From: an uncultured Coriobacteriaceae bacterium
GTDB lineage: Bacteria; Actinomycetota; Coriobacteriia; Coriobacteriales; Coriobacteriaceae
Assembly (NCBI GenBank): GCA_944322175.1
Contig: CALUOB010000009.1
Location: 1 to 33,049 of the forward strand
Length of the DNA: 33,049 bases
Reading direction: 5' to 3'
Shown here: positions 4,764-10,835 of the stretch, one piece after another
How the letters are laid out: each line of letters opens with the position of its first letter
Numbering within the stretch: the stretch's first letter is position 1
Notes under the pieces: generated by a model
Databases searched by the model: none
Seen by the model: the letters and a program-made list of their open reading frames with translations, nothing else
What the model was told of the DNA's origin: nothing
Program-made: the position numbers and the translations under genes

Positions 4764-6150
4764 ATGCAGCATTCTGCAGTAGCGCAGCCTATGGCTTCGA
4801 AAAACGAGATGCCTTTGGCCGAGCGCATCCTTTCCCAAACATCTAAATCAGCCCAGCGGCCCTGTATGCTCGTTTTGGCAGACGGGGCCGTTTTTTACGG
4901 ACGCGCCTGCGGCGCGCGTGGCGAGGCGGTGGGCGAGATCTGCTTCAACACCTCGCTCGAGGGCTACCTTGAGGTGCTGACCGACCCCTCGTACGCCGGC
5001 CAGATCATCACCATGACGTATCCGCAGATCGGCAACTACGGCGTTAACCTCGAGGACGTGCAGTCGGGTACGCCCGCCCTGCGCGGTATGGTCGTGCACG
5101 ACATGTGCCGCACACCGAGCAACTGGCGCTCCGACATGAGCCTGCCGGAGTTTCTCGAGAGCCGCGGCATCGTGGCCATCGAGGGCATCGACACCCGCGC
5201 CCTTACGCGCCACATTCGCGACTACGGCGCCCAGCAGGCCATCATCTCCACGGAGGACCTCGACATCGCCTCGCTCAAGGCCAAAGTCGACGCGGCGCCC
5301 TCTATCGTGGGCGTCAACCTCGCCCGCACGGTGAGCTGCCCGGTTGAGCACTCCTTCGGCACGTGCGACCTGCCGCAGAGCCAGGCGTTTGCGGTGGCCG
5401 ACCCCGCCGAGGGGCGCTTCCGCGTTGTGGCCTACGACTGCGGCGTCAAGCACTCCATCCTGCAGGGACTCGTGCGCGCTGGCTGCGAGCTCACCGTGGT
5501 TCCGTGGGACACGCCTGCCGAGAAGGTGCTCGCCAAGAACCCCGACGGCGTGTTTCTCTCCAACGGCCCGGGTGACCCCGACGCCGTTGAGGAGACCTAC
5601 GCGCAGGTGCGCGAGCTTATCGGCAAGGTGCCGATCTTTGGCATCTGCCTCGGTCACCAGATGGTGAGCCTCGCTTGCGGCGGTCAGATGGAGAAGCTCA
5701 AGTTCGGTCACCGCGGCGGCAACCAGCCCGTCATGAACCTCGTTTCGGGACGTGTGGAGATCACGGCGCAGAACCACGGCTTCGGCCTCGTGTTCCCGAG
5801 CCTGGGCGCGCTTGTGCCCGAGGAGTCGGGCGGCGTTGCCGAGCACCCGGCCGACGGCGACCTGCGCTTCTGGAGCGAGCGCCACATTGCCCCCGTGGTC
5901 ATGAACGAGCGCTTCGGCCGCATTCGCCTCACGCACGTCAATCTCAACGACGGCACCTGCGAGGGCATTCAGCTGCTTGACCAGCCGTGCTTCTGCGTGC
6001 AGTACCACCCTGAGGCCTCGCCCGGACCCACCGACGCGCACTACCTGTTCACGGCGTTCACGCGGCTCATGGCCGGTGATTCCGACTACCTGAACATCGA
6101 TATCTCGAAGGACCGCCTTGCCGGCTGGAAGTTCGGAGGAGAGGTCACCA

Positions 6151-6158
<8 letters not shown>
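4764..6158 (+). CDS. carA: Carbamoyl-phosphate synthase small (glutaminase) subunit
   Basis: CarA hydrolyses glutamine and passes ammonia to CarB for carbamoyl phosphate synthesis, feeding pyrimidine and arginine pathways. The N-terminal CPSase small-chain domain ([21 protein letters not shown]) is followed by a class I glutamine amidotransferase domain with nucleophile C295 in FGICLGHQM and H415/E417 in YHPEASPG. At 464 residues it is about 80 longer than E. coli CarA: roughly 30 extra N-terminal residues, an extra segment at 341-387 between QNHGF and [11 protein letters not shown], and a C-terminal tail. The ATG at 4764 follows AAGGAGCGTG. A later start within the N-terminal extension cannot be excluded. 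It overlaps carB by 8 bases (ATGCCTAA), implying coupled translation. Confidence 0.97.
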
Positions 6159-9408
<3,250 letters not shown>

Positions 9409-9540
9409 AGTTCGACGCTGCGGCCGCGGCTGGCGGGCGTCTCGGGCTTCACTCGTCGGGCATGACCACGAGGTCTATGCCCTCCTCGTTCGGCCCGATC
9501 CGCCTCGCCACACACGCCCTCGCTTTCGCGCAGGTAACTT
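9409..9540. other. Region just after carB, no gene seen
   Basis: Nothing resembling a gene or a T-tailed terminator was found directly after the carB stop. Reading frames crossing this stretch have no ribosome sites or recognisable domains and continue into the downstream repeats, so I treat them as chance high-GC frames. carB termination may rely on the hairpins at 9551-9630 or on Rho. Confidence 0.5.
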
Positions 9541-9651
9541 GCACCGCATTGGCCAGCCCCTTTTGGGGCTGGCCTCGCTGTGCTTGTGGTCAACCTGCGT
9601 CGCACTGGCCCGCCCACCTCTGGGCGGGCCTTGCTGTGCTATGGGCGACCT
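9541..9651. repeat. Tandem 56/55-base repeat, each unit with a perfect 10-bp hairpin
   Basis: Unit 1 (9541-9596) and unit 2 (9597-9651) align throughout. Each holds a perfect 10-bp stem with a 4-base loop: GGCCAGCCCC/GGGGCTGGCC (9551-9574) and GGCCCGCCCA/TGGGCGGGCC (9607-9630). Stem differences between the units are compensated on the opposite arm, while the loops are free (TTTT versus CCTC). The shared flank after each stem is GCTGTGCT, with ACCTGCG further on. There is no T-tract, so these are not classical terminators. Confidence 0.8.
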
Positions 9652-9749
9652 GCGGGGGCGGGTTTCTCGTTCGGGCTAACCTGCTCTGCCGGCCGCGCAC
9701 TCGCTTTTTTGGACGTCCTGGCTGGCGGTCTGACTATCGACGACGATTG

Positions 9750-9840
9750 TTCATGAACTTTCGTCTACGAAAGTCGGGAAGCCCCAGGATCGGGCCTGGT
9801 GAGGGTGCGAAAGTTCATGAACTTTCGCGATCGAAAGTCG
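9750..9840. repeat. Repeated TTCATGAACTTTCG-N4-CGAAAGTCGG units with a 22-base palindrome
   Basis: The unit TTCATGAACTTTCG-N4-CGAAAGTCGG occurs at 9750-9777 (N4 = TCTA) and 9813-9840 (N4 = CGAT), 63 bases apart. Each can fold an ACTTTCG/CGAAAGT hairpin around the N4 loop. In the second copy a perfect 22-base palindrome at 9807-9828, centred on TTCATGAA, competes with that hairpin. Confidence 0.8.
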
Positions 9841-9874
9841 GCTCCTCTTCCCTCGGTGAGGCGCGGGCGGGGAT

Positions 9875-9992
9875 CTTCTGCAAACCGAAGCCGGGTTGCA
9901 CTTGAAAAGCGAAGCCGGTTTGCAGAAGGACCTGCGGATACGTCAAACCCGGCGCCGCTTTTCAGCGACAACCCGAACACGGTTTGCAGAAG
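9875..9992. repeat. Three copies of CTTCTGCAAACCG, one direct and two inverted
   Basis: CTTCTGCAAACCG at 9875-9887 faces perfect inverted copies at 9916-9928 and 9980-9992. The first pair makes a 13-bp stem around a 28-base loop that contains GAAGCCGGGTTGCA, itself echoed by GAAGCCGGTTTGCA. A 9-base inverted pair (TGAAAAGCG 9903-9911, CGCTTTTCA 9956-9964) is nested among them. Confidence 0.75.
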
Positions 9993-10120
9993 GGCCGGGC
10001 GCGTGGTCGCAGGACGGATCCGCACGGGGCCGATGTTGGGATATGGTGCCAGCGCGCATGCGCGGCGTTTCCGCCCGGAGGTCACGCGCCCGGCCCGGCG
10101 GGATCGGGCCTCACATACGA

Positions 10121-10245
10121 CCGACGCCACGGTTCCGACAAAATGAGGAGTCAAAGTGTCGGAAACGTGGCGTTGGTGGTTGCGGAGTGTCGGATACACG
10201 ACACGCGTGATCGGGATTTCTCGGTGTTACCGGGAATGTTCCCGG
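10121..10245. repeat. Chain of three inverted repeats upstream of the nitroreductase stop
   Basis: A 20-base stem (10121-10140 with 10157-10176, 18 of 20 identical plus one possible G-U pair) encloses a 16-base loop. It is followed by GTGTCG/CGACAC (10187-10204) and by CCGGGAA-TG-TTCCCGG (10230-10245). The last lies 10 bases beyond the minus-strand nitroreductase stop and could help end that transcript, although it has no T-tract. Confidence 0.7.
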
Positions 10246-10254
10246 GAGCGGGAA

Positions 10255-10779
10255 TTACTCCTCAAAGGCGTCTTCGGCAAAGAAAAGCTCTTCGGTCGGC
10301 AGGTTAACCTCGTGCATGGGGCCGGGTTGGCTGGCGTCGCTCGGGTATCCCATGGGCATAACCGAGATAATGCGGTACTTCTTGGGAATATGGAACTGGC
10401 GGCGCAGTTCCGGCGGATCAATGAGGCCAACCCAGCAGGTGTGGATGCCGAGTTCCTGCGCCTGGAGCATCATGTGCGTGGCAACGATCGACGTGTCAAT
10501 GACGCCAAAGTCAACCACATCGGGGTTGCGGCTCGCAATGCTCAGGTCGTATGCGAGAATCATGACGCACGGTGCGCCAAACCGGCACTTGGTTGCCTTG
10601 TCGATCTTGGTGAGCCCCTCAGGCGACTGCACTACGATAATGCGCTCGGGCTGCAGGTTACGCGCGGTGGGTGCAACGCGCCCCGCCTCCATAATGAGCT
10701 CGAGCTTCTCCTGCTCGATGGGCGTGTCTGCAAAGTAGCGCTCCGAGTACCGTTCGCGGGCCAAATCGATAAATGCCAT
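10255..10779 (-). CDS. Nitroreductase family protein (FMN-dependent)
   Basis: A 174-residue member of the NADH/FMN nitroreductase fold. The N-terminal RERYSERYF motif and EAGRVAPTARNLQPERIIVV carry residues that contact the FMN phosphate and ring, and VIDTSIVATHMMLQAQELGIHTCWVG is the typical central helix. Such enzymes reduce nitroaromatics, quinones or flavin-like compounds in the cytoplasm as homodimers; the natural substrate is unknown. ATG 10779 is preceded by AAGGGAGC at proper spacing, so the TTG five codons upstream is rejected. The YbjQ-like gene on the same strand lies 56 bases upstream, so the two may be co-transcribed. Confidence 0.9.
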   Translation of the reverse strand: MAFIDLARERYSERYFADTPIEQEKLELIMEAGRVAPTARNLQPERIIVVQSPEGLTKIDKATKCRFGAPCVMILAYDLSIASRNPDVVDFGVIDTSIVATHMMLQAQELGIHTCWVGLIDPPELRRQFHIPKKYRIISVMPMGYPSDASQPGPMHEVNLPTEELFFAEDAFEE

Positions 10780-10835
10780 ATGTGCTCCCTTCAATTGGTC
10801 GATCTGCTGCTTGGTGAGCTGTCAATAGTTTGAGT

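Follow-up and report, generated by a model that had tools for sequence, protein, structure and literature searches.

BOX and ERIC elements measure 100-200 bp, are composite or form long imperfect palindromes, and lie in transcribed intergenic regions. BOX has been described as a composite, imperfectly palindromic intergenic element (PMC3049150). The pneumococcal SPRITE is also dispersed and enriched 3' of genes, and its stem is followed by a tract with about 48% U (PMC3049150). The Collinsella-1 RNA motif (RF01700) is a candidate structured RNA from Actinobacteria and the human gut (PMC2864571), and the main text of another study gives one Collinsella candidate, upstream of ribosomal protein L7/L12 (PMC8040213).

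The window, that is the whole stretch of 33,049 nucleotides analysed here, comes from an uncultured Coriobacteriaceae bacterium and contains behind carB an element that as a kind is one of the dispersed palindromic repeats. It is set apart by its adjacency to stop codons, by an internal loop that is conserved while the arms change, and by its copy number throughout the family. Comparison with Rfam 15 gave no gathering-level match, neither in the window region nor for the element at 14 related loci, and RF01700 gave no match in either; matches to twister-sister, CRISPR and microRNA families were below threshold and none was convincing. A literature search with partial coverage found no paper on such an intergenic repeat in Collinsella. 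The element is conserved, structured and outside Rfam; in one of the major groups of bacteria in the human gut it follows dozens of ordinary genes, and it may define how the mRNAs of Collinsella relatives end.

Structure of the element at the carB stop codon

The gene carB, encoding the large chain of carbamoyl-phosphate synthase (6118-9408, plus strand, putative start; Pfam CPSase_L_D1/D2/D3 and MGS), ends with the stop codon TAA at 9406-9408, and the composite element begins directly 3' of it. On its other side the hairpin region is flanked by a convergent gene of the nitroreductase family (10255-10794, minus strand). Two hairpins on the plus strand are the distal part of the element. Hairpin 1 (9551-9574; GGCCAGCCCC-TTTT-GGGGCTGGCC, then TCGCTGTGCTTG) and hairpin 2 (9607-9630; GGCCCGCCCA-CCTC-TGGGCGGGCC, then TTGCTGTGCTAT) are spaced 56 bases apart, each with a perfect 10-bp stem and a 4-base loop, and the two adjacent stem-loops described in an earlier note on this DNA were thus recovered exactly. 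The other features listed there were also found: the stems differ at pair 5 (A-T in hairpin 1, C-G in hairpin 2) and at pair 10 (C-G and A-T) with both arms altered together, the common flanks GCTGTGCT...ACCTGCG occur exactly twice in the window against 0.00 expected from shuffling, and no uninterrupted T-tract follows either hairpin. Compared with dinucleotide shuffles, folding gave z -4.6 for 9530-9660 and z -7.2 for 9409-9660. The sister species, an uncultured Collinsella (G002), has no hairpin 2 at its orthologous site. A degenerate extra unit (AACCTGCTCTGCCGGCCGCGCACTCGCTTTTTT) is seen 3' of both hairpins at 9664-9720, and the sister species is without it.

The proximal part is an imperfect long hairpin of about 116 nt (9413-9528, plus strand) with the arms GACGCTGCGGCCGCGGCTGGCGGGC... 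and ...GCCACACACGCCCTCGCTTTC. Its consensus structure, obtained with RNAalifold from 24 copies, has 48 pairs, 16 of them with double changes. Upstream, most well-preserved copies reach to about 10 nt from the preceding stop codon, with starts 0-10 nt after it. Within the long hairpin the core R2 (9435-9501, plus strand) comprises an inner helix, a conserved internal loop and an apical stem-loop. The 5' side of the loop (TCANTCGTC, 9449-9457) was placed by column conservation over 97 copies and its 3' side (9483-9491) reads TCCTCYTTC, in the window TCCTCGTTC; between them lies the apical stem-loop (9458-9482; GGGCATGACC-ACGA-GGTC(T)ATGCCC), which has a one-base bulge and covarying pairs, all on the plus strand. 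The covariation score of R2 was 0.311, compared with 0.154 in shuffled and at most 0.083 in slid alignments, and no control reached 0.311.

The core also occurs outside the source species. Among named genomes, a search with the core pattern gave matches in Collinsella aerofaciens, Collinsella sp. An307 and others, in which the arm sequences differ yet remain complementary. The R2 model matched in 54 of the 67 genomes of the family (Collinsella relatives), commonly with 20-30 copies per genome and with 44-45 in one; at the threshold used, some genomes of the family had no match at all. In one locus of the C. aerofaciens group (L214) a match above threshold to RF02838 (Ref55, an Enterococcus sRNA) was found at 937-990, about 230 nt 3' of the core.

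One-sided departures from pairing in the long hairpin (54 G.T, 75 A.C) do not favour the sense strand, and the reverse complement is predicted to be the more stable in 90 of the 97 copies. The preference for the sense strand is accordingly absent or reversed in this part. In its reverse strand the core has runs of the GAAAGAGGAGGG type, similar to a Shine-Dalgarno sequence (window 9435-9501), so that its sense strand resembles the 3' tail of 16S rRNA. The reverse strand could also be read as the 3' end of a coding sequence (KEE......DD-stop), the conservation being that of a protein. The window and many other copies do read ...EEGIDLVVMPDE-stop in reverse, and few triplets are more strongly conserved than TCA, which is the stop; only 46 of 93 copies, however, stay in frame from one conserved part to the other, and open frames are mostly shorter than 70 codons. 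With the reading frame not kept across copies, a coding origin was rejected as very improbable.

Further dispersed sequences are found between the element and the nitroreductase-family gene. Element B (9744-9841) is built around a 20-bp palindrome (CGAAAGTTCATGAACTTTCG), has 12 BLAST matches when both strands are counted and trails the first element on C47, C75, C40, C52 and C8. Element C (9862-10000) is self-complementary, matching itself on both strands, has about 10 copies in the genome and is often located 3' of element B. An inverted repeat at 10110-10180 (CCACGGTTCCGACA...TGTCGGAAACGTGG) could be one more element, the fourth, or else a bidirectional structure. In G003 (L284), a core copy occupies the carB site of the window's element in an orientation opposite to carB.

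Distal copies and the origin of paired stem changes

The window segment has 15 BLAST matches in its own genome, itself included. A covariance model of the distal hairpin, built from 16 copies that had been collected by their similarity to the window, gave 28 matches in the same genome (E<=1.3e-5) and 25 in the sister species. Among the 28, the second unit of the window has no entry of its own because of its overlap with the first match. Two further genomes of the genus had no match, and elsewhere there were only isolated weak ones. The distal stem-loops, with 10-12 bp, GC-rich stems and mostly tetraloops, are specific to the source species and its sister; in a few of the matches the copy is compact and lacks the hairpin.

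A structure-blind alignment of the 16 copies had standard pairs in 160 of 160 pair cells, with 15 double changes. For both genomes together, in an alignment that was fitted to the structure and takes in three antisense self-matches, 98.1% of 485 cells pair and 42 cells have double changes, compared with 13.7 in shuffles. One-sided departures on the sense strand comprise 20 G.T and 4 A.C, an excess consistent with folding of the sense RNA, in a count that is no formal test since the copies are related. The pairing is kept in the genomic copies, and in so far as the earlier note proposed that the hairpin was retained, its proposal is upheld.

The paired changes themselves need not be compensation after duplication. 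The two most common stems switch pairs 5 and 8 jointly, forming linked haplotypes (Fisher P=4e-6): 13 copies have C-G at both pairs, 23 have G-C with T-A or T-G and 6 are mixed. Of the stem differences at loci common to both species, 19 are double and 18 single, with some loci entered twice in this comparison. At the carB site of the sister species there is a single unit with a third stem variant, having G-C at pair 5. From the linked haplotypes and this third variant it follows that exchange of entire stem types accounts for a good part of the differences in pairing. The argument that paired changes prove compensation is weakened by the haplotype linkage, by the third variant and by swaps of entire elements, and as the sole cause of the paired changes compensation is contradicted by the linkage and the whole-module swaps.

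An origin by mutation, without selection, is a real possibility, if somewhat short of even odds. In one step, template switching (quasipalindrome correction) or gene conversion among copies would copy a change from one arm into its partner or would transfer an entire stem. Template switching has been proposed to create and maintain hairpins, and could yield paired changes in a single step (PMC8794818). The stem types do form linked haplotypes, flips from G-C to C-G are common with wobble intermediates rare, and at fixed loci whole-hairpin versions alternate. This explanation does not, however, account for the conservation of the unpaired internal loop across genera or for the spacing to the stop codon, and it is compatible with a function at gene 3' ends, for which it would be a source of variants. 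The element also illustrates how exchange of whole hairpins can give rise to paired differences between the stems of repeat copies, which calls for caution in taking covariation as selection.

Placement behind genes and exchange between loci

Core copies are located 3' of a gene on the same strand in 89 of the 97 cases examined in detail (P=2e-18 assuming independence, the copies not being fully independent), and 48 of 54 distal copies are placed in the same way. A few of the 97 cores have the opposite orientation. The gene following the 89 core copies is co-directional in 61 cases and convergent in 18; the reading frames behind these counts were predicted by a codon model trained with the window's sequence, so that single predictions may be wrong. 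The core starts at most 35 nt from the stop codon in 57 of the 97 copies and 36-60 nt from it in another 15, mostly from G041, where the longer spacing is due to an extra short hairpin. In the C. aerofaciens group (L214-L238, G041) a short hairpin, for example GTTACGCGGTTTTACCAAACCGCGTAAC, was seen between stop codon and long hairpin, and it differs between versions at one locus. The genes upstream of the core are varied, few of them being common to different genera; most element loci are common to the source species and its sister.

Exchange was followed at tyrS and between pheS and pheT, gene names which we take from the encoded sequences. At the 3' end of tyrS about ten genomes of the C. 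aerofaciens group have a canonical terminator (hairpin and T-tract) after the stop codon, and in other genomes of the group the element stands there instead and exists as three distinct versions. At the tyrS locus of G047 (L301), an IS-like sequence of about 1.4 kb is inserted 3' of the element. The pheS-pheT gap of most group genomes has the element after the pheS stop codon, and three versions of it occur here as well. G062, G045 and G044, and by match coordinates G050, lack it; in these the flanks are otherwise conserved and 15 other bases are found instead. Entire modules are gained, lost and exchanged between loci; the exchange is seen at tyrS and pheS-pheT and its mechanism we infer. The genes pheS and pheT are normally co-transcribed, and with the element located inside this unit, the long hairpin is probably not sufficient by itself for complete termination.

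The distal hairpins have several features of terminators. They are GC-rich stem-loops with a stable stem, just 3' of a gene and in sense orientation. Across the distal family, the 12 bases after the stem contain 48% T, compared with 18% in the window, with T at positions 1, 5, 7, 9 and 10 and about 3-4 T in the first 8 bases of most copies. In Streptomyces clavuligerus a 3' end was regarded as U-rich with at least 3 U in 8 nt (PMC8269248), and by this measure the distal tails would count as U-rich. An uninterrupted U-tract after the stem was not found in the distal hairpins, the T-rich tail being interrupted (TCGCTNTGTTYY). The earlier statement that they are not simple terminators is too strong in view of the tails. 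Canonical terminators were found at 28 of 95 element-bearing gene ends and at 19 of 108 control ends, several of the 28 being hairpins of the element itself; gene ends with the element did not generally lack canonical terminators.

The reading preferred here, with a probability of roughly 55%, is an exchangeable composite RNA module of the 3' end, placed at stop codons, with distal hairpins that are terminator-like and have interrupted T-rich tails. The module forms a sequence family with a common orientation, adjacency to stop codons and a conserved structure. In favour of a 3'-end module are the family of 28 and 25 matches in the two genomes, the same-strand orientation, the stop adjacency of the core, covariation in both parts, the element at tyrS in a position held in relatives by a canonical terminator, its varying presence and versions after pheS, its absence from Rfam, and the T-rich tail and the G.T excess of the distal part; against it are the location between pheS and pheT, the canonical terminators not being depleted, the lack of a sense preference in the long hairpin and a few copies with the opposite orientation. 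The module would belong to the transcript of the upstream gene, as its 3' untranslated region, in which the long hairpin may fold and act as a barrier or as a processing or protein-binding signal. The distal stem-loops would probably either act as intrinsic terminators of a weak or imperfect kind or protect the 3' end, and with gain, loss and exchange of modules between loci the stem variants would spread as units.

A processing signal could also be the principal function, with the long hairpin being cut by an RNase III-type enzyme or bound by a protein, so that it sets the 3' end of the mRNA or separates cistrons. The long duplex with its conserved internal loop and the position between cistrons such as pheS and pheT would agree with this, but no known recognition motif was identified and it is judged unlikely. 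More tentatively than the 3'-end module, a class of family-wide modules targeted to stop codons and not described before is suggested, in which a structured hairpin with a conserved internal loop is moved and exchanged as a unit, precisely to the 3' side of stop codons, and is able to replace terminators. If this is true, such modules would give their host genes a common 3'-end control. With the many close Collinsella genomes available, exchange and effect are directly testable.

Comparison with dispersed repeats and terminators

Selfish dispersed repeats of the MITE, BOX or ERIC type would be palindromic DNA spread behind genes, where it does least harm, by an unknown enzyme, the RNA structure being a by-product of the palindromy. 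Close relatives do differ in presence or version at the same loci, similar and recently amplified subfamilies occur in G041 and its relatives, and three types of palindromic element are stacked 3' of carB. The long hairpin is an imperfect palindrome from end to end and thus has the terminal inverted repeats of a MITE. The two loci compared as target sites show replacement rather than clean insertion, of a terminator at tyrS and against 15 bp at pheS-pheT, with no target-site duplication seen at either. The strong orientation and stop-codon spacing also argue against a selfish origin, as do the conservation of the internal loop across genera and the variation of the arms by paired substitutions, and this origin is considered doubtful. 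Integron attC sites were rejected, judged by copy locations, as the copies are dispersed on many contigs behind unrelated genes without a cassette array. Viral contigs had no match to one strict element pattern, which is a weak test.

REP and BIME are likewise extragenic palindromes, intercistronic or 3' of genes. The Y1 (RAYT-type) transposase that goes with them (PF01797) had no match in the source genome, though control genomes matched; on this ground a REP/RAYT system was rejected, and it also counts against the selfish reading. Compared by description with BOX and ERIC, the element is distinguished by its tight adjacency to stop codons and by arms that still pair despite sequence change between genera. 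An intrinsic (Rho-independent) terminator is, like the distal part, a GC-rich hairpin 3' of a gene with a T-enriched tail, and a related element replaces one at tyrS; unlike in such a terminator, the T-tract is interrupted here and the long hairpin is also found inside the pheS-pheT unit. The 3'-end module is favoured by this terminator resemblance of the distal hairpins together with SPRITE as the nearest described repeat, the tail of the distal hairpin having 48% T as SPRITE has about 48% U. SPRITE differs in belonging to another phylum and in having an 18-bp stem and a long tract, compared with 10-12 bp in the distal hairpins, and unlike SPRITE the element described here is a composite that starts at the stop codon and includes a hairpin with a conserved internal loop.
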